Part shown: piece by piece, positions 2,579 to 10,471 of the stretch
How the letters are laid out: each line of letters begins with the position of its first letter
Position numbering within the stretch: position 1 is the first letter of the stretch
Position numbers and translations under genes: made by a program
Notes under the pieces: model-generated
What the model saw: only the letters and a program-made list of their open reading frames with translations
What the model was told of the DNA's origin: nothing
Databases searched by the model: none
DNA from: Pseudomonas laurentiana
GTDB taxonomy: Bacteria; Pseudomonadota; Gammaproteobacteria; Pseudomonadales; Pseudomonadaceae
Assembly: GCF_014648275.1 (NCBI RefSeq)
Contig: NZ_BMQU01000019.1
Coordinates: forward strand, 29,603-93,602
Direction of reading: 5' to 3'
Length of the DNA stretch: 64,000 bases

Positions 2579-4318
2579 ATGACGTATTTAGCACCTTTTA
2601 CCTGCGGTTTGATTCTATGCATCGCCAGCTTCGCCGTCTGTGCGCAAAGTGAACTGGTCGTTCGGATAGAGCCTGCCAATAGCGAGCTCAAGGACAATAT
2701 CGAAGGTTACATTGGTAGCCTCGGCGACCGTGACGAAGAGGCCTTGATGCGCTTCAGTCGCGGCGCCGTCGAGCAGGCCAGAAAAGCCGCCCAGGCGCTG
2801 GGGTACTACCAGCCCCACATCGAAACCGAAGTCAAACCCCCAGCCAAGGCGAACAAAGGTCCACGTCTGGTGCTGAAGGTTGAACCTGGTGAGCCCATCC
2901 GGCTTCGTGACATCACGGTGCGTATTGAAGGCCCGGCCAGTCAGTTGAAGGCCTTTCGCATACCTAACAGCCGCTACTTGCGCTCGGGTGAGGTGCTCAA
3001 CCATGGGCACTATGGGGACGCCAAGCGGTTGATTCAGAATCAGGCTTCGCGCTACGGTTTTTTCAGTGGCCGTTTTCTTCGCCAGCGTCTGGCTGTCGAT
3101 CCACTGGCCGGGGTCGCGGATATCGAACTGGTCTATGACAGCGGCCCGCGCTACGCCCTGGGCAAGGTTCAGTTCACTGGCGACAGCCCTTTCGACGAGG
3201 ACCTGCTGCGCAGGATGGTGCCGTTTCAGGACGGTGCGCCCTATGATTCTGAGCTGATTGCCGAGCTCAATAACGCCTTGCAGTCCAGTGGCTACTTTGA
3301 AGGCGTGCGGGTCGATGCTGCGCCGACGGCAGCGGTGGGCCAGACGATCCCGGTGGCGGTTCAGTTGCAGACCCGCAAGCCCCGCACCATGGGCTTGGGC
3401 CTGGGATTCTCGACGGACGTCGGTCCTCGTGCCAAGGCTAACTGGACGCGCCATTGGGTTAACCCTGAAGGTCATAGTTATGGTGTCGAGACAGAAGTCT
3501 CGGCCCCCCGGCAGAACGTCGGCCTGTGGTACGACGTGCCTCTGGACCCGCCGCTGACCGACAAGTTTCGTTTTGCCGGCGGTTATCAGAACGAAGAAAT
3601 CGCCAACACCGACAGCCTCAGCAAGCTGCTGACGGTAGGCCCGGAATGGCACAGCAAGTTGCCCAGTGGTTGGCAACGGGTGATTTCGCTCAAGTGGCAG
3701 CGCGAGGAATACCGCCTGGGTGATGACTCCGGGCTGAGCAACCTGTTGATGCCGGGTGTCAGTTACGCCTACTTGCGTAGCGACAACCGCATTGATCCGC
3801 ACAATGGCTACCGCCTGCAGTTCGACACGCAGGTCGCGAAGGAAGGTGTACTCTCGGATACCAACCTGGTGCATGGCAATGTCCTGCTCAAGGGCTTGAC
3901 CACCCTTGGGCAGAATCACCGTTTCCTGGGCAGGGTGCAGTTTGGCGGCAGTGCCACCAACGGCTACAAATCAATGCCGCCATCGTTGCGTTTTTTCGCC
4001 GGTGGCGATCAGAGCGTGCGCGGTTACGACTACCAGACGCTGTCGCCGAAGAACTCGGATGGTGACCGTATTGGTGGCCGCTACCTGGTGGCCGGCAGTG
4101 TTGAGTACCAGTATTCGATTGCCGAGAAGTGGCGCGTGGCGACCTTCGTCGATCAAGGCAACTCATTCAACAGTCTGGAGTTGCCAAGCCTCAAGACCGG
4201 CGTCGGTCTTGGCGTACGCTGGGTCTCTCCGGTGGGTCCACTGCGATTGGACCTCGCCCACGCGCTGGATGACGAGGGCGGTATTCGTTTGCACTTTTCC
4301 ATGGGGCCGGAACTGTGA
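2579..4318 (+). CDS. tamA: Translocation and assembly module outer-membrane protein TamA
   Basis: This 579-aa Omp85-family barrel works with TamB to insert proteins such as autotransporters into the outer membrane. A signal peptide (residues 1-22, ending CAQ) is followed by POTRA-type repeats (about 25-265) and a C-terminal 16-strand barrel domain (about 270-579) with the surface-antigen motif LRFFAGGDQSVRGYDYQTL, including the conserved VRGY. Length equals the usual TamA. The stop codon overlaps the tamB start by 4 nt, so translation is probably coupled. Confidence 0.93.
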   Translation: MTYLAPFTCGLILCIASFAVCAQSELVVRIEPANSELKDNIEGYIGSLGDRDEEALMRFSRGAVEQARKAAQALGYYQPHIETEVKPPAKANKGPRLVLKVEPGEPIRLRDITVRIEGPASQLKAFRIPNSRYLRSGEVLNHGHYGDAKRLIQNQASRYGFFSGRFLRQRLAVDPLAGVADIELVYDSGPRYALGKVQFTGDSPFDEDLLRRMVPFQDGAPYDSELIAELNNALQSSGYFEGVRVDAAPTAAVGQTIPVAVQLQTRKPRTMGLGLGFSTDVGPRAKANWTRHWVNPEGHSYGVETEVSAPRQNVGLWYDVPLDPPLTDKFRFAGGYQNEEIANTDSLSKLLTVGPEWHSKLPSGWQRVISLKWQREEYRLGDDSGLSNLLMPGVSYAYLRSDNRIDPHNGYRLQFDTQVAKEGVLSDTNLVHGNVLLKGLTTLGQNHRFLGRVQFGGSATNGYKSMPPSLRFFAGGDQSVRGYDYQTLSPKNSDGDRIGGRYLVAGSVEYQYSIAEKWRVATFVDQGNSFNSLELPSLKTGVGLGVRWVSPVGPLRLDLAHALDDEGGIRLHFSMGPEL

Positions 4319-7300
4319 GTCGTGTGTTTAAAGGGATTGCTATCGGCTTGGTCAGCGGACTGCTGATTGTGGTTTTCGGCGTGGTCGCGGTACTGGGTAC
4401 GCAGGCAGGCAGTCGTTGGGTACTGAGCCGGGTACCAGGGTTGCAACTGGACGACTTCCAGGGGCGGCTGGCAGGGCAGTGGCAGGCCAAGCGCTTGTTG
4501 TGGGAGCAGTCGGGTAACCGGGTTGAGCTGACCCAGCCGCTGCTGGAGTGGTCGCCCGCCTGCCTGTTGCGCATGACCCTATGCGTAACGCAACTCCGTG
4601 CCGAGCGGGTGGACCTGGCGTTTGCCCCCGGCGAACCTTCGACAGACAGCGGCCCGCTGCAGTTGCCGGCCTTGGCACTGCCGCTGAGCATCGAACTGGG
4701 TGAGCTGCAGGTTGGTCGACTGACGCTGGATGGCAACGAGCAGTTGAGTCAGTTGCAACTGGCGGCCCATTGGGGCATCCAGGGCCTGCGTATTGATCGC
4801 TTGCAGGTTCAGCGAGAGGAATTGCACCTGACCTTGCAGGGGACGTTGCAGCCTGAGGGCGACTGGCCTTTGCAGGCCACCGGCCAACTGCAATTGCCGG
4901 CCGTGGATGGGCAGTCGTGGCAATTGGCTCTGAAGGTGGACGGTGACCTGCAGCAGACGTTGCGGGTGGGCGCCGACAGTACGGGCTATTTACAAGGGCG
5001 GCTTGACGGGCAGTTACAGCCGCTGGCAGCGAACTTGCCGGCCAAGGTGCGTATCAGCGCCGATGCCTTCAAGGCGAGTGCCGACCTGCCTGATACCCTC
5101 CAGCTCAATCAGGTGTTGCTAACCGGTGAAGGTGACCTGAGCGCCGGTTACCGGCTCGCGGGCAATGCCAGCCTGCCGGCCTTGCAGGGCCCGATAGCCT
5201 TGGCCCTGCAAGGCCGGGTCGATGCCCGTGGCGCTGAATTGTCGGCCCTTGATCTTAATGCCGCTGCCGAGCAGTACCTCGCGCTCAAGGCCACTGCCGA
5301 CTGGCAGCAGGGCATCAAGGCCGGCGCTCAGGTTGAGTGGCTGGACTTCCCCTGGTTGCGCCTTTACCCGATGGATGAAGCGCCCCAGGTCACCCTGCGT
5401 CGTTTCAATGGCCAGGTCCGTTACCAGGAAGGGCGTTACGAAGGGGATTTTGCCGGTGACCTGGATGGACCGGCCGGTGCGCTCAAGGTCAGCAGTCCGT
5501 TCAACGGCGATCTCACGGCGATCGAGCTGCCACAGCTTGTCCTGACTGCGGGGCAGGGCAAGGCATCCGGTCACCTCACGCTGCGGTTCGCCCAAGGCAT
5601 CGCCTGGGACACGGCACTGACCCTGTCTGCGCTTGATCCCGCGTATTGGCTGGCCGAGTTGCCAGGTTCACTGGCCGGGCCGTTGCGCAGCACGGGCGAG
5701 TTCAAGGATGGCCAGTTGCGCCTGGATGCCGACTTGAACCTGAAGGGCCGCCTGCGTGGCCAGCCCGCACAGCTTCAGGTCAAGGCCGAGGGGGCTGGGG
5801 AGCAATGGACCTTGGGCACTCTGGATGTACGTCTGGGGGACAACCATATCAACGGTAGTGGCAGCCTTCAGCAGCGCTTGGCCGGCCAGCTCGACCTTGA
5901 CCTGCCCCGTTTGGGGCAGCTCTGGCCGCAACTGCAAGGTCGCTTGAAAGGGCGCCTGGAGGTTGCGGGTACATTCAAGGCACCGCAGGGCCAACTGATG
6001 TTGCTGGGGCAGCAGTTAGTCCAGGGCGAGAACCGTCTACAACGCCTGGACCTCAGGGCGCACCTGGACTCGACGCAGCGTGCGCTGATTGAACTGGAGG
6101 CGGGTGCGATCCAGTTGGGTGAAACGGCGTTGGGCACGCTGACCGCCAAGGGGGAGGGTGATAGGCGTCAACAGCAGTTGAGTTTGGGGCTATCAGGGCC
6201 GCAGTTGGTGCTTGACCTTGCGCTGGATGGCCAGTTGGACAAGGAGAACTGGCGAGGGCGCCTGGCCAGTGGGCGTATCCAGGCCGGTGGTCAAGACTGG
6301 CAGTTGCAGGCGCCGGCTCGGCTGCAGCGTCTGGCGAATGGCCAGATCGACTTTTTTGCGCATTGCTGGCGCTCGGGCGACGCCAGCCTGTGTGGCGAAG
6401 ACCAGCGTCTGGCGCCTGAGCCGAGGTTGCGTTATCACCTCAAGCAGTTCCCGTTGCAGAGCCTGGCCCAATGGTTACCTAAAGACTTCGCCTGGAACGG
6501 CCTGCTCAATGCCGATATCAACCTCGATCTGCCGGCCAGCGGCCCCAAGGGGCTTGTTCAGGTCGATGCTGGTGGTGGCACGTTTCGGCTGCGTGAGAAA
6601 GGACAATGGCTGGACTTCCCTTACCAGACCCTGCGTCTTGACAGCACCCTGGCCCCACGACGGGTAGATACTCGTCTGGCGTTTCGTGGAGAACGACTGG
6701 GTGAACTGAACCTGGATACGCGCCTCGATCCTTTGGCGAAGAACAAACCGGTCAGTGGCACGTTCAGTCTGAATGGACTGGACCTTTCCATCGCCCGCCC
6801 CTTCGTTCCAATGGTGGAACGTCTGGCCGGTCAGTTGAATGGCAGCGGCAGGGTGTCCGGCACACTGCTGGCCCCTCAAGTCAACGGTAGCCTCATTCTG
6901 TCGCAGGGCGAAGTCAGCGGGTCAGAATTGCCCGTCAGCATGCGCGAGCTGACGTTGCGTGCCGTGGTTGCTGGCGAGCAGGTCCAACTGCAGGGCGGGT
7001 GGAAAAGTGGTGAGAGCGGTCAGGGCCAGTTGAACGGTCAGATCGGCTGGGCGCGTGCGCTGGCGGTCGATCTGCGTGTGCGTGGCCAACGCTTGCCGGT
7101 CAACGTCGAACCCTACGCCGCGCTTGAGGTGGCCCCTGACCTGAGCATTGGCCTGCAAGGTGACAAGCTGGCAATCACTGGCAAAGTGCTGGTGCCCAAG
7201 GGCAAGATCAGCATCCGTGAACTACCGCCTTCAACCGTCAAGGTCTCCGATGATACGGTGATCGTCGGCCATCAGACCGAGGCGGGTAAGGTACCCCTGG

Positions 7301-7989
7301 CGGTCGCCATGGACGTCGATGTTGAGGTAGGGCAGGAAAAATTGTCGTTCAGGGGCTTTGGTTTGAGTGCAAACCTGCGCGGTGCCGTGCATATCGGTGA
7401 CAACCTCGATACCCGCGGCGAGCTGAGCCTGGTCGATGGCCGTTACCGCGCGTATGGTCAGCGCCTGACCATTCGTCGTGCTCGATTGCTGTTTGCCGGC
7501 CCTATCGACCAGCCGTATCTGGATATCGAGGCTGTGCGCAAGACCGATGACGTGATCGCCGGTATCCGCCTGAGCGGCAGTGCCGAACAGCCAACCACCC
7601 AGGTGTTTTCCGAGCCGGCGATGAGCCAGGAACAGGCCTTGTCGTACCTGGTGTTGGGGCGACCGTTGGGCAGTACCGGTGAAGACAACAACATGCTTGC
7701 GCAAGCGGCGTTGGGCTTGGGACTGGCTGGCAGTTCGGACCTGACCGGCAGCCTCGCGAAGAATCTGGGTATCGACGACTTCCAGCTCGACACTCAGGGG
7801 AGTGGCGCCAGCACCAGTGTGGTCGCCAGTGGCAACCTGACCGAGCGCTTGAGCTTGCGCTATGGCGTGGGCGTCTTCGAGCCGGCCAACACCATTGCCT
7901 TGCGCTACCTGCTGAGTAAAAAGCTCTACCTGGAAGCCGCCAGTGGGATCGCCAGCTCGCTTGATCTGTTCTACAAGCGCGACTTCTGA
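4315..7989 (+). CDS. tamB: Translocation and assembly module inner-membrane-anchored protein TamB
   Basis: This 1,224-aa AsmA-like protein forms a long hydrophobic beta groove bridging the periplasm from the inner membrane to TamA, and the family is also linked to phospholipid transport. An N-terminal anchor helix (about residues 8-27, IAIGLVSGLLIVVFGVVAVL) is followed by about 850 residues of repetitive beta-rich sequence and the conserved C-terminal DUF490/TamB domain, ending in LDLFYKRDF. The GTG start at 4315 lies in the GTGA overlap with the tamA stop. Confidence 0.92.
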   Translation: MSRVFKGIAIGLVSGLLIVVFGVVAVLGTQAGSRWVLSRVPGLQLDDFQGRLAGQWQAKRLLWEQSGNRVELTQPLLEWSPACLLRMTLCVTQLRAERVDLAFAPGEPSTDSGPLQLPALALPLSIELGELQVGRLTLDGNEQLSQLQLAAHWGIQGLRIDRLQVQREELHLTLQGTLQPEGDWPLQATGQLQLPAVDGQSWQLALKVDGDLQQTLRVGADSTGYLQGRLDGQLQPLAANLPAKVRISADAFKASADLPDTLQLNQVLLTGEGDLSAGYRLAGNASLPALQGPIALALQGRVDARGAELSALDLNAAAEQYLALKATADWQQGIKAGAQVEWLDFPWLRLYPMDEAPQVTLRRFNGQVRYQEGRYEGDFAGDLDGPAGALKVSSPFNGDLTAIELPQLVLTAGQGKASGHLTLRFAQGIAWDTALTLSALDPAYWLAELPGSLAGPLRSTGEFKDGQLRLDADLNLKGRLRGQPAQLQVKAEGAGEQWTLGTLDVRLGDNHINGSGSLQQRLAGQLDLDLPRLGQLWPQLQGRLKGRLEVAGTFKAPQGQLMLLGQQLVQGENRLQRLDLRAHLDSTQRALIELEAGAIQLGETALGTLTAKGEGDRRQQQLSLGLSGPQLVLDLALDGQLDKENWRGRLASGRIQAGGQDWQLQAPARLQRLANGQIDFFAHCWRSGDASLCGEDQRLAPEPRLRYHLKQFPLQSLAQWLPKDFAWNGLLNADINLDLPASGPKGLVQVDAGGGTFRLREKGQWLDFPYQTLRLDSTLAPRRVDTRLAFRGERLGELNLDTRLDPLAKNKPVSGTFSLNGLDLSIARPFVPMVERLAGQLNGSGRVSGTLLAPQVNGSLILSQGEVSGSELPVSMRELTLRAVVAGEQVQLQGGWKSGESGQGQLNGQIGWARALAVDLRVRGQRLPVNVEPYAALEVAPDLSIGLQGDKLAITGKVLVPKGKISIRELPPSTVKVSDDTVIVGHQTEAGKVPLAVAMDVDVEVGQEKLSFRGFGLSANLRGAVHIGDNLDTRGELSLVDGRYRAYGQRLTIRRARLLFAGPIDQPYLDIEAVRKTDDVIAGIRLSGSAEQPTTQVFSEPAMSQEQALSYLVLGRPLGSTGEDNNMLAQAALGLGLAGSSDLTGSLAKNLGIDDFQLDTQGSGASTSVVASGNLTERLSLRYGVGVFEPANTIALRYLLSKKLYLEAASGIASSLDLFYKRDF

Positions 7990-7990
7990 G

Positions 7991-8563
7991 TCAGCGAACG
8001 GTTGCGGCGGCGATGAACTCGTTGTCTGTGGACGGCGGTGCAGGGGTGGGTTGGCGGCTGGGGACAATCAGTTGGGTGTACTCTTCGATCAGTCGATTCA
8101 GTGCCTCGGGCGGTTCGCAGGCCTGAAACTGCATGCGAATCTGTACTTCGTCCGGGTCACGATGATCGCCTTGGCGCTTGTTCTGAGCGCCAACGGTGAC
8201 CATGAACCGTTCGTGCTTGAGCGCGCTGTTCTCCAGTACGTGGCTTGCATCGGCCAGCTCGGTGTTCTGGATTTTTACCGAGAGGTCGACTTGCATCCGC
8301 TCCAGGGCCAGGCCGCGGGGTGATACCAGGGTGATCAGTGGGATGCTCAGGGTATGCCGGTCATCCATGGCAACATCGACCATCTTGGCCTTCATGGGGG
8401 CGCCCAACGCTTCGGCGTCATAGTCAAAAAACTGGTCAAACAGCTTGATGTACTGTTGGGCGATCAGGTTGTTCGCCGCCGCTGCGGCGTCCTGCAGACC
8501 TCGGGTAATGTCAGCCAGATCGCAGGTAGCAAGCGGCTCTTTGTCGTTAGGACTGCGTTCCAA
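7991..8563 (-). CDS. DUF2589-like protein B, paralog of the adjacent gene
   Basis: The protein has 190 aa, with a TTG start and a strong AAAGGAG ribosome site 9 nt upstream; no ATG is available before residue 57. It resembles the neighbouring DUF2589 protein in layout: an N-terminal helical segment (ADITRGLQDAAAAANNLI), a central beta segment (IPLITLVSPRGLALERMQ), and a C-terminal motif CEPPEALNRLIEEYTQL matching QDPPEALMRVIDILT in protein A. No signal peptide or membrane segment is seen. Function is unknown. It ends 2 nt after tamB on the opposite strand and is last of a minus-strand set behind the Mor-type gene. Confidence 0.7.
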   Translation of the reverse strand: MERSPNDKEPLATCDLADITRGLQDAAAAANNLIAQQYIKLFDQFFDYDAEALGAPMKAKMVDVAMDDRHTLSIPLITLVSPRGLALERMQVDLSVKIQNTELADASHVLENSALKHERFMVTVGAQNKRQGDHRDPDEVQIRMQFQACEPPEALNRLIEEYTQLIVPSRQPTPAPPSTDNEFIAAATVR

Positions 8564-8595
8564 GAGGCTGGGCTCCTTTGGCGAGGGACGGGAAA

Positions 8596-8617
8596 GCTCC
8601 GCTCATCAGAGCGGAGC
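8596..8617 (-). promoter_or_regulatory. Perfect hairpin between the two DUF2589 genes
   Basis: A 9-bp perfect stem (GCTCCGCTC / GAGCGGAGC) with a 4-nt loop lies in the 67-nt gap between the paralogous genes. No T-run follows on the minus strand, so it is more likely a transcript-processing or attenuation element than a full terminator. It could set different levels of the two proteins. Confidence 0.45.
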
Positions 8618-8630
8618 CTGCTGTAGCGTG

Positions 8631-9275
8631 TCAGACGGTGGTCTGTTGCACCTGGTCTGGCATCGGCAGTTTGGATTCAGGCAAGGCGTCCTTGTTCTGC
8701 GCCTCGGTGTTGGGAAGCATGACGGGCTTGGTGGCGGCATCGGTCAGGATGTCGATGACCCGCATCAAGGCTTCTGGTGGATCCTGGCGTTTGACACGGG
8801 TATTGAATGCGTAACGCGCGCGGGTGTCGGTCTTGCGGGTTTGTGTTGACTTGTGGCTGACCTGGCCTTTGACGTTCATCTTGAACGGGCCCCAGCCAAT
8901 GGAGGCGCCGAACTCAGCGCTGCCACCGGTTTCAGTGCTGCTTTCGGCCTGCTGGCTGATGGTCAGCTCGAACTCGATGTTACCTTCTTCAATGGCGATG
9001 TTCGGGTGGGTGACAGCCGCCAGCAGGGGGATCTGCATTTTCTTGGCGACGGTACCCTGATAGACACCCTGTTCGTCCGTGAGGGTTTCTTCGTAGTCGA
9101 ATTGGATGGCGACCGCCTTGCCATCTTGAATGCAGACGCCCATGAGGAAGTCTGCGTAGGATTTACTGGCGCTGACCTGCGCCTGAATCATGGCCTGCAG
9201 CGGCCCGGAGATCATCCGATCCAGTGGCAGTGCGTTCATGACCGAGCCGATGAGGCTGTTATCGATAGTTGCCAT
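8631..9275 (-). CDS. DUF2589-family protein A
   Basis: The protein has 214 aa. It shows the pattern I associate with DUF2589 (Pfam family of unknown function): an N-terminal amphipathic stretch MISGPLQAMIQAQVSASKSY leading into FLMGV, an acidic strand IQFDYEETL, a central strand PLLAAVTHPNIAIEEGNIEF, a Ser/Thr/Gly-rich segment near residue 125 (ESSTETGGSAEFGASIGWGP), then the PPEALMRVIDIL motif. No signal peptide, membrane helix or catalytic motif is visible. AAGGAA lies 9 nt before the ATG. It sits 46 nt downstream of the Mor-type gene on the same strand, suggesting co-transcription. Confidence 0.78.
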   Translation of the reverse strand: MATIDNSLIGSVMNALPLDRMISGPLQAMIQAQVSASKSYADFLMGVCIQDGKAVAIQFDYEETLTDEQGVYQGTVAKKMQIPLLAAVTHPNIAIEEGNIEFELTISQQAESSTETGGSAEFGASIGWGPFKMNVKGQVSHKSTQTRKTDTRARYAFNTRVKRQDPPEALMRVIDILTDAATKPVMLPNTEAQNKDALPESKLPMPDQVQQTTV

Positions 9276-9321
9276 GGTGCGATTTCCTTATCGTGAAGTG
9301 CGCGTCAGTGCGCGGTTACCG

Positions 9322-9711
9322 TTAGGCGGTGTGGCGAGCGTGAGCCTCTTGACGCCTGATGTTGCCGATCTGGCGCAGGCTCAGGCCGTATTTGTCGGCC
9401 AGCACGCTACGGGACAGGCCGTGCGAGCTTTCCTGTTGAATCTGTTGGTTACGCAGTTGCCGGTTGAAATGGTCGGGTTTGGGAATCTCCAGCGCAGTGC
9501 CCGCGTAGCGTTTGATCAAGGCCTCGAGTTGTTCGCTGGGCAGCACATCGGCCAGCGTTGTGCGGCCCGGATGCTTGGGAATGTACTTGGGCCTGCCGCC
9601 GTAGATGCAGGTCAAGCGGTACGCGCTTTCCAGCCCGACACAGGCGATCAACGCTTGTAGGGAATGAGGCAGTTGCGTGATGTCGATGCGGTTCAGGTCG
9701 CTGAGTTCCAT
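9322..9711 (-). CDS. Mor-family transcription activator (Mu middle-operon regulator type)
   Basis: The 129-aa protein matches the length of phage Mu Mor. The N-terminal dimerisation region contains LPHSLQALIACVGLESAYRL followed by YGGRPKYIPKHP, the Gly-Gly-Arg and Tyr-Ile-Pro signature of Mor/C proteins. The C-terminal region (about residues 99-121, LSRSVLADKYGLSLRQIGNI) fits the helix-turn-helix. The ATG at 9711 is preferred over an in-frame GTG at 9717 because AAGGAA is correctly spaced only from the ATG. No other Mu-like gene is nearby, so it is a solitary regulator, plausibly controlling the DUF2589 genes directly downstream. Confidence 0.78.
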   Translation of the reverse strand: MELSDLNRIDITQLPHSLQALIACVGLESAYRLTCIYGGRPKYIPKHPGRTTLADVLPSEQLEALIKRYAGTALEIPKPDHFNRQLRNQQIQQESSHGLSRSVLADKYGLSLRQIGNIRRQEAHARHTA

Positions 9712-9731
9712 GAGCACTTCCTTGTCAATGG

Positions 9732-9818: not shown

Positions 9819-10471
9819 TCATGGGATGATTCTCGGGCACTGCACGACAAAAGATCTAGGTAGCAAGCGGGTCTCTGCCAGTAGCTGTTCCTGCTTATAT
9901 TCGGTGGGAAAAATGGCGAAGGTATGTGGGTATTCACCAGAGCAGTCGGCGCAAAGCCCCGCTTTTCGGTCAGTCACCACAATGGCAATGCCGCTGCTTG
10001 GGTCTACCAGCGTCAGTCGCAAGGATGGGTGATCAACAAGTTGACTTGAGCCATCAGTGCGGTTTGGCGAGGTAAGGCATTGTCGGGAAAGGACCGCCAG
10101 TCGACCCATAGGCAGATGGCGGTGAGTGGGGTATCACCACGTGCGCCGACGACCTGTGGGGCGAAGTCGCGGCGGTACAGGGCTTGGGTTTTCTTTAGCC
10201 CTTGGGCGCTATCGGCCGAGGTCAATGTGGCTCTCACCAGCGGCGGAATTTCCCTCATGGTGACGGTGAAGGCTTCTTGTGTTTCCGGACTGCCCAGGTG
10301 TCCGGCCTGTCGAGAGCGTTGCCACAACTGCTGCCATTGGCTGTTGCCTGCGCTGTTCGCTAGGCCGGTACCGAGTTGCTTCAGGTGTGAAGGATCGAGG
10401 TCTACGGTTTGCAGTGCTTGAGCCTCAATACAGACCAGCAGGCCGATACTGAGCAGGGAAGGTATGCGCAT
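9819..10471 (-). pseudogene. Exported hypothetical protein split by a frameshift
   Basis: One frame (10471 to 10013) gives about 152 aa beginning MRIPSLLSIGLLVCIEAQALQ, a good signal peptide, and stops soon after NLLITHP. The -1 frame continues without a stop to 9819 with plausible protein sequence (SLRLTLVDPSSGIAI ... DRKAGLCADCSGEYPHTF ... PRSFVVQCPRIIP), including a CADC pair. Joining the frames near 10020 would give about 220 aa. A GGAG lies 8 nt before the ATG at 10471. A lost base in the genome or a sequencing error explains this best; a slippery heptamer is not visible. The family is unrecognised. Alternatively, the short frame alone is the gene. Confidence 0.5.

Follow-up and report, generated by a model that had tools for sequence, protein, structure and literature searches.

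A conserved Mor–DUF2589 cassette of Pseudomonas as a candidate domesticated phage lysis or release cassette

The stretch of Pseudomonas laurentiana DNA analysed here (64,000 nucleotides; the window) carries on its minus strand a four-gene unit that is transcribed in the order C6 (10013–10471), Mor (9322–9711), A (8631–9275) and B (7991–8563), where C6 is a secreted-type protein, Mor is a phage-type transcription activator, and A and B are paralogous DUF2589 proteins. We propose, with a probability of roughly one half, that this unit is a domesticated phage lysis or release cassette under Mor control. The near-constant pairing of DUF2589 genes, their link to lysozymes and their occurrence in viruses are new here. 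In the full form of the cassette, which is found in a sister branch of Pseudomonas loci, Mor would switch on a cytosolic muramidase devoid of a signal peptide, together with A, B and the secreted C6. The DUF2589 pair would act with the peptidoglycan hydrolase, most likely by helping this hydrolase or other cellular contents to cross the envelope, and it would remain constant while the lysozyme family is swapped in other lineages. At the tamB site, where the window copy lies, C6-Mor-A-B would act without a lysozyme of its own or with one encoded elsewhere; because that branch lacks a lysozyme, we infer the role of the cassette there.

The family assignments of a preliminary description, which had been made from the sequence alone, are borne out by curated profiles. 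A (214 aa) matches PF11655 with E = 2.7e-23 (83.4 bits, profile positions 1–152 of 154) and B (190 aa, TTG start) with E = 6.4e-15 (56.3 bits, positions 2–153), so that both are near full-length members above the curated cut-off of 23, and a search of the whole source genome turned up no DUF2589 gene besides these two. Mor (129 aa, or 131 aa if translation begins at the GTG at 9717) matches PF08765 with 36 bits (cut-off 24.9; E = 7.5e-9; profile positions 26–94 of 107) and phrog_836, a "late transcriptional activator", with E = 1.3e-26. It thus resembles the Mor/C activators of phage Mu, from which it differs in preceding DUF2589 genes and in being only 27–35% identical to the eight phage records that it matched. 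Mor lies upstream of A with a gap of 46 bp, which indicates that the two are probably co-transcribed. The earlier suggestion of a domesticated phage-type switch driving the DUF2589 pair therefore stands in part: a phage-type regulator has been kept with the pair, whereas we infer that Mor drives the cassette. The literature yielded one paper that mentions DUF2589 and, as had been stated, no assigned function for the family.

The compact three-gene cassette described previously is conserved as a trio but forms part of a larger unit, C6-Mor-A-B. What had been read as a broken gene upstream of Mor is an intact 152-aa frame (ATG at 10471, stop at 10013) that belongs to this unit, and its homologues match over the full length and end alike (tblastn, E = 8e-34). 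The impression of a broken gene may have come from a short open reading frame tail behind C6 (9819–10022, minus strand), which matches only the window and Pseudomonas defluvii L081 among 115 sequences by tblastn (third match E = 0.57) and is possibly a gene remnant. Alignment of 20 Pseudomonas C6 proteins revealed two cysteines and three tryptophans that are invariant, and 38 of 53 C6 proteins have a hydrophobic, signal-type N-terminus. Pfam gave no match at E ≤ 1 for the longer reading frame and none above cut-off for one homologue, and no credible PDB relative of C6 was found. The closest relative of the window locus is that of P. defluvii L081, whose A is 98% identical. Comparison of the window with L081–L084 gave ratios of nonsynonymous to synonymous substitution rates (dN/dS) of 0.04–0.09 for A, 0.06–0.11 for B, 0.02–0.12 for Mor, 0.12–0.32 for C6 and 0.08–0.145 for tamB, with dS above 1 in three of the four comparisons (L082–L084); A, B, Mor and C6 of the window are open frames kept by purifying selection.

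Two forms of the cassette exist in Pseudomonas. A scan of genome contigs returned 200 relatives, and the best 80 comprised 65 Pseudomonas-type loci (63 labelled Pseudomonas and two metagenome-assembled genomes labelled otherwise), eight loci of other lineages with A and B, and seven distant ones. The gene content of the 65 loci, determined by tblastn within 6 kb of A, was tamB, C6, Mor, A and B in 39 cases and C6, muramidase, Mor, A and B in 20; minor layouts were Mor-A-B (two), tamB-A-B (two), muramidase-Mor-A-B (one) and C6-Mor-A-B (one). Mor accompanies the pair in 63 of the 65, in agreement with the prediction that the three genes travel together, and C6 is present in 60, tamB in 41 and the muramidase in 21. 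The muramidase and tamB never occur together (0/65). A tree of A resolves the two forms as sister branches (support 100/97 for the tamB form and 87/83 for the muramidase form), with L099, which has no muramidase, placed within the muramidase branch and L134, at a contig end, within the tamB branch. In the window, tamB is on the plus strand (4315–7989) and convergent with the B end of the cassette. No phage gene was seen beside this copy, as noted before, but the sister loci have a phage-type muramidase between C6 and Mor, transcribed away from Mor.

The cassette muramidase (190 aa) matches the pesticin-type family PF16754 over residues 11–160 with E = 6.7e-52. Some PF16754 match is present in 18 of 149 sampled Pseudomonas genomes, only four of which (G061, G067, G106 and G109) have a match with E < 1e-40, and each of these four strong, full-length matches lies approximately 0.7 kb from a DUF2589 gene. 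The probability that all four would fall among the 23 DUF2589-positive genomes by chance is about 4.5e-4, although the four represent one branch and are not independent. A hydrophobic N-terminus was seen in one of 26 pesticin-type muramidases (some sequences redundant), and hydropathy gave no clear transmembrane segment in this enzyme.

Lysozymes of other families were found near more distant DUF2589 pairs. A GH24 enzyme (Phage_lysozyme) follows the pair in Leminorella (L148), on two provirus-like contigs (L161 and L162) and in Burkholderia stagnalis (L077); its frame overlaps B in L077 and L162 and is 3 bp from B in L148, while in L072 and L156 the GH24 gene is about 1 kb from the pair. In L075 and L145, A and B are accompanied by a GH19 enzyme and by a Mor-like protein that scores below the Pfam cut-off; a GH19 enzyme is also encoded near the pair in L047, L159 and L160, followed by an EndoU protein in L047 and L159, and a PF11860 N-acetylmuramidase gene stands beside the pair in L080. 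For 22 mostly cellular loci lacking the trio, 155 neighbour proteins were listed, and among the 147 of these compared with Pfam, Phage_lysozyme was the commonest family (top 25 of 190 families viewed); its seven members fall in L072, L077, L148, L156 and L161 by a purpose-built hidden Markov model (HMM). A recognised lysozyme was located within approximately 4 kb in eight of the 22. Across 17 DUF2589-bearing genomes, four of 16 PF00959 matches (two of them in one genome) were within about 4 kb of the pair, versus an expectation of about 0.04 (roughly 65 Mb searched, 10 kb per locus). None of 11 GH24 and none of seven GH19 lysozymes has a hydrophobic N-terminus (some sequences redundant).

Some of these loci have further content. 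In other Pseudomonas species with a distant DUF2589 pair, the GH19 gene is followed by one for a secreted EndoU-type nuclease (L047, 10171–11587; L159, 3582–5068), and L160 appears alike by eye. Besides the pair and two GH24 lysozymes, the islands at L148 (9302–13760) and L161 (1120–6417) each encode a LuxR-type regulator, small hydrophobic proteins, a secreted protein resembling barnase (PDB profile E = 4.6e-11) and a protein with an RNase A-type CdiA domain (PF18431); they could possibly be secreted-RNase plus lysis islands.

In the muramidase form of Pseudomonas, no encoded protein looks like a holin by hydropathy, so something must let the muramidase out. A and B themselves appear soluble: by hydropathy, a transmembrane-like stretch was found in three of 178 A, one of 181 B and none of 73 Mor sequences, and B of the window shows neither a signal peptide nor a clear transmembrane segment. 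The AlphaFold2 model of B (mean predicted local distance difference test score, pLDDT, 82.8) features a long helix, five strands and a C-terminal helix, whereas that of A is weak (pLDDT 67.2; predicted template modelling score 0.46). A differs from B in its longer middle region, residues 103–149 (8829–8969), a predicted hairpin modelled with low confidence. This region is rich in serine and threonine (28% versus 11% in the rest of the core, and higher in 32/32 aligned sequences), has beta-periodic, amphipathic hydropathy and carries a GWGPF tip that is exact in 18 of the 32, which brings to mind the hairpins of beta-pore-forming proteins. We tentatively suggest a soluble two-protein opener of the inner membrane in which B would bind and A would insert the amphipathic beta-hairpin with its aromatic tip. 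Such a pore would release cytosolic lysozymes (GH24, GH19, pesticin-type or N-acetylmuramidase) and cargo, and would be a holin substitute used by phages as well as by domesticated release cassettes. At the tamB site it would function on its own, and the secreted C6 would be either a protector or cargo. Because the model of A is poor (pLDDT 67) and no match to a pore-former fold was found in support, we consider the pore itself doubtful while giving lysis or release an even chance.

Relatives of the pair are also found in viruses. A scan of IMG/VR contigs returned 231 DUF2589 relatives; the 80 best were retained (some, for example L161–L163, look chromosomal), and A or B was recovered with purpose-built HMMs in 78 of the 80. 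In 26 of these loci, which form one group with many alike, a peptidoglycan-binding, endolysin-type protein is encoded no more than 6 kb from the pair; two representatives, L195 and L185, match endolysin PHROGs, and the same group encodes a 70-aa protein with a weak holin PHROG match (E = 1.4e-4). In the L164–L172 group, A is preceded by a gene for a protein with one C-terminal transmembrane segment, and after B come portal and capsid genes. A tally of viral neighbours by PHROGs and Pfam (125 of 189 listed proteins from 15 loci, including L165, L168, L172–L175 and L177) contains portal, capsid and recombination genes among its top 25 families. As a separate observation, L199, L200, L204, L205 and L207 encode a spanin-like protein with a lipobox and an internal transmembrane segment upstream of A, and in L200, L204 and L205 a second small reading frame, lipoprotein-like by eye, overlaps the end of this gene.

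Several results weigh against a lysis or release role. The Pseudomonas pesticin cases represent a single branch in the tree of A, with no independent events, and tblastn found no pesticin-type gene at the window locus, nor does the source genome contain a pesticin match. No recognised lysozyme is nearby in 14 of the 22 loci lacking the trio, although some contigs are short and two SLT matches were left unplaced. The viral tally, viewed for the 25 leading families out of 139 and 71, includes no lysis gene except the L185 endolysin, which had been put first in the set, and the sampled groups L164–L172 and L173–L177 thus show no lysozyme link. The weak holin match in the endolysin-bearing phage group implies that A and B cannot simply replace a holin there. 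Finally, Archaeoglobus has DUF2589-related genes but is not known to have murein, which makes it less likely that the family serves lysis alone.

Some of these points could be accommodated by other roles for A and B. The pair might act on the hydrolase within the cytosol by binding it, restraining it or timing its action, in the manner of a soluble antiholin or chaperone, while another membrane protein opens the membrane. The tight linkage, including the overlapping or nearly abutting B and GH24 frames, would suit such a role, as would the weak holin match in one phage group and the hydrophobic, probably membrane proteins encoded after the lysozyme in L148 and L161; since the lysozymes come from several Pfam families, specific partner binding would have to re-evolve, and the pair persists at the tamB site with no lysozyme to bind. 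We regard this as possible but unlikely. The position of the pair just upstream of portal and capsid genes in the L164–L172 group, and the lack of a lysozyme among the sampled neighbours there, would instead fit virion or late structural proteins of tailed phages, with virion-associated lysozymes and a pair that bacteria kept for another use. A place after a tail-fibre-like gene and before the portal gene would also suit a lysis module, and neither portal nor capsid is among the top 25 Pfam families of the mostly cellular neighbour set, in which Phage_lysozyme leads; a structural role is thus rather improbable.

It is more doubtful again that A and B are general cytosolic stress or metabolism proteins and that the lysozymes merely reflect phage-derived neighbourhoods. 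The Archaeoglobus DUF2589-related genes AF0414–AF0417 are described as up-regulated on lactate, that is, as responsive to growth substrate (PMC3949148), and the 14 loci devoid of a recognised lysozyme are consistent with such a function, but the lysozymes near the pair are both enriched and varied. The preliminary description had also offered the cassette as a candidate defence, stress or competition module. If it were an anti-phage system of the abortive-infection kind, Mor would sense, or belong to, an invading Mu-like phage and trigger suicide by A and B; Mor does belong to a phage regulator family, and a lysis device would suit this purpose. The one scan made, which compared the four cassette proteins of the window and one cassette muramidase with PADLOC-DB 2.0, gave no match at E ≤ 1 and so lends anti-phage defence no support, and we consider this role very improbable.

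The region upstream of mor contains TTCC-type boxes. In 12 of 13 dissimilar sequences of the muramidase form, two such boxes are separated by about two helical turns (3.08 boxes per sequence versus 0.94 in shuffles). The tamB form is enriched in boxes ahead of mor as well (0.81 versus 0.46), and so is the region upstream of C6 (1.07 versus 0.47, and 1.76 versus 0.75), in neither case with the pairing. These boxes may be Mor sites; Mor of phage Mu is reported to bind as a dimer to a 16-bp element, centred at −43.5, that contains two inverted repeats of 5 bp (PMC4390567). The paired boxes are spaced by approximately 21–22 bp between the start codons of the muramidase and mor genes, as a possible operator, in L094, L095, L097, L105, L108, L110, L112, L118, L136, L138, L143 and L152. 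Mor may also be linked to the pair outside Pseudomonas, since on a plasmid of Vibrio tubiashii the DUF2589 genes are followed by one for a Mor-like protein (L078, 9416–9835; purpose-built HMM).

Pesticin-type muramidases are known in combination with a periplasmic immunity protein, and the sister form likewise has a pesticin-domain muramidase beside the secreted, two-cysteine C6; unlike in that arrangement, the cassette muramidase consists of little beyond its catalytic domain and C6 has no credible PDB relative. Type 10 secretion systems (T10SSs) provide a further comparison, being described as holin, endolysin and spanin clusters outside phages (PMC10847048) that derive from phage lytic cassettes (PMC13284979). 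The Pseudomonas cassette resembles these systems and phage lysis cassettes in its apparent phage derivation, its dedicated regulator and the signal-less peptidoglycan hydrolase of the sister and some distant forms. It differs in having neither holin nor spanin, with the soluble DUF2589 pair as the constant element, and the window form has no hydrolase either. Hydropathy gave no clear transmembrane segment in A, B, Mor or the muramidase, and C6 has only its signal-type N-terminal stretch; no pesticin-type gene was found at the locus or in the source genome, and hydropathy and inspection revealed no lipoprotein or transmembrane protein among the four window genes. As holin, hydrolase and spanin are all lacking, the window cassette is not classed as a T10SS, although different components may let it work in a similar way.

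DUF2589 genes were detected in 23 of the 149 Pseudomonas genomes, nine of 398 genomes sampled across the phylum and three of 369 across the class, the source genome being counted in all three samples. Exactly two matches were found in 22 of the 23, eight of the nine and all three positive genomes, respectively, the exceptions being G080, with four partial matches, and G166, with one. In G080 (L068) the cassette appears to have decayed, its DUF2589 matches lying in four pieces next to a shortened tamB frame. In the distant B2-A form, a protein of about 90 aa (C15), mostly encoded directly after A, is a possible third partner (L047, L048, L071, L072, L073, L078, L079, L154, L156, L157, L159 and L160); the one copy checked, that of L047, has no Pfam match.

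The DUF2589 pair is thus present in 23 of 149 sampled Pseudomonas genomes and on many viral contigs, yet has no assigned function. The lysozymes of four Pfam families that are linked to it make its function testable by plain lysis assays. If A and B do open membranes, they would join holins as a further, soluble means of lysis and of lysis-based secretion.
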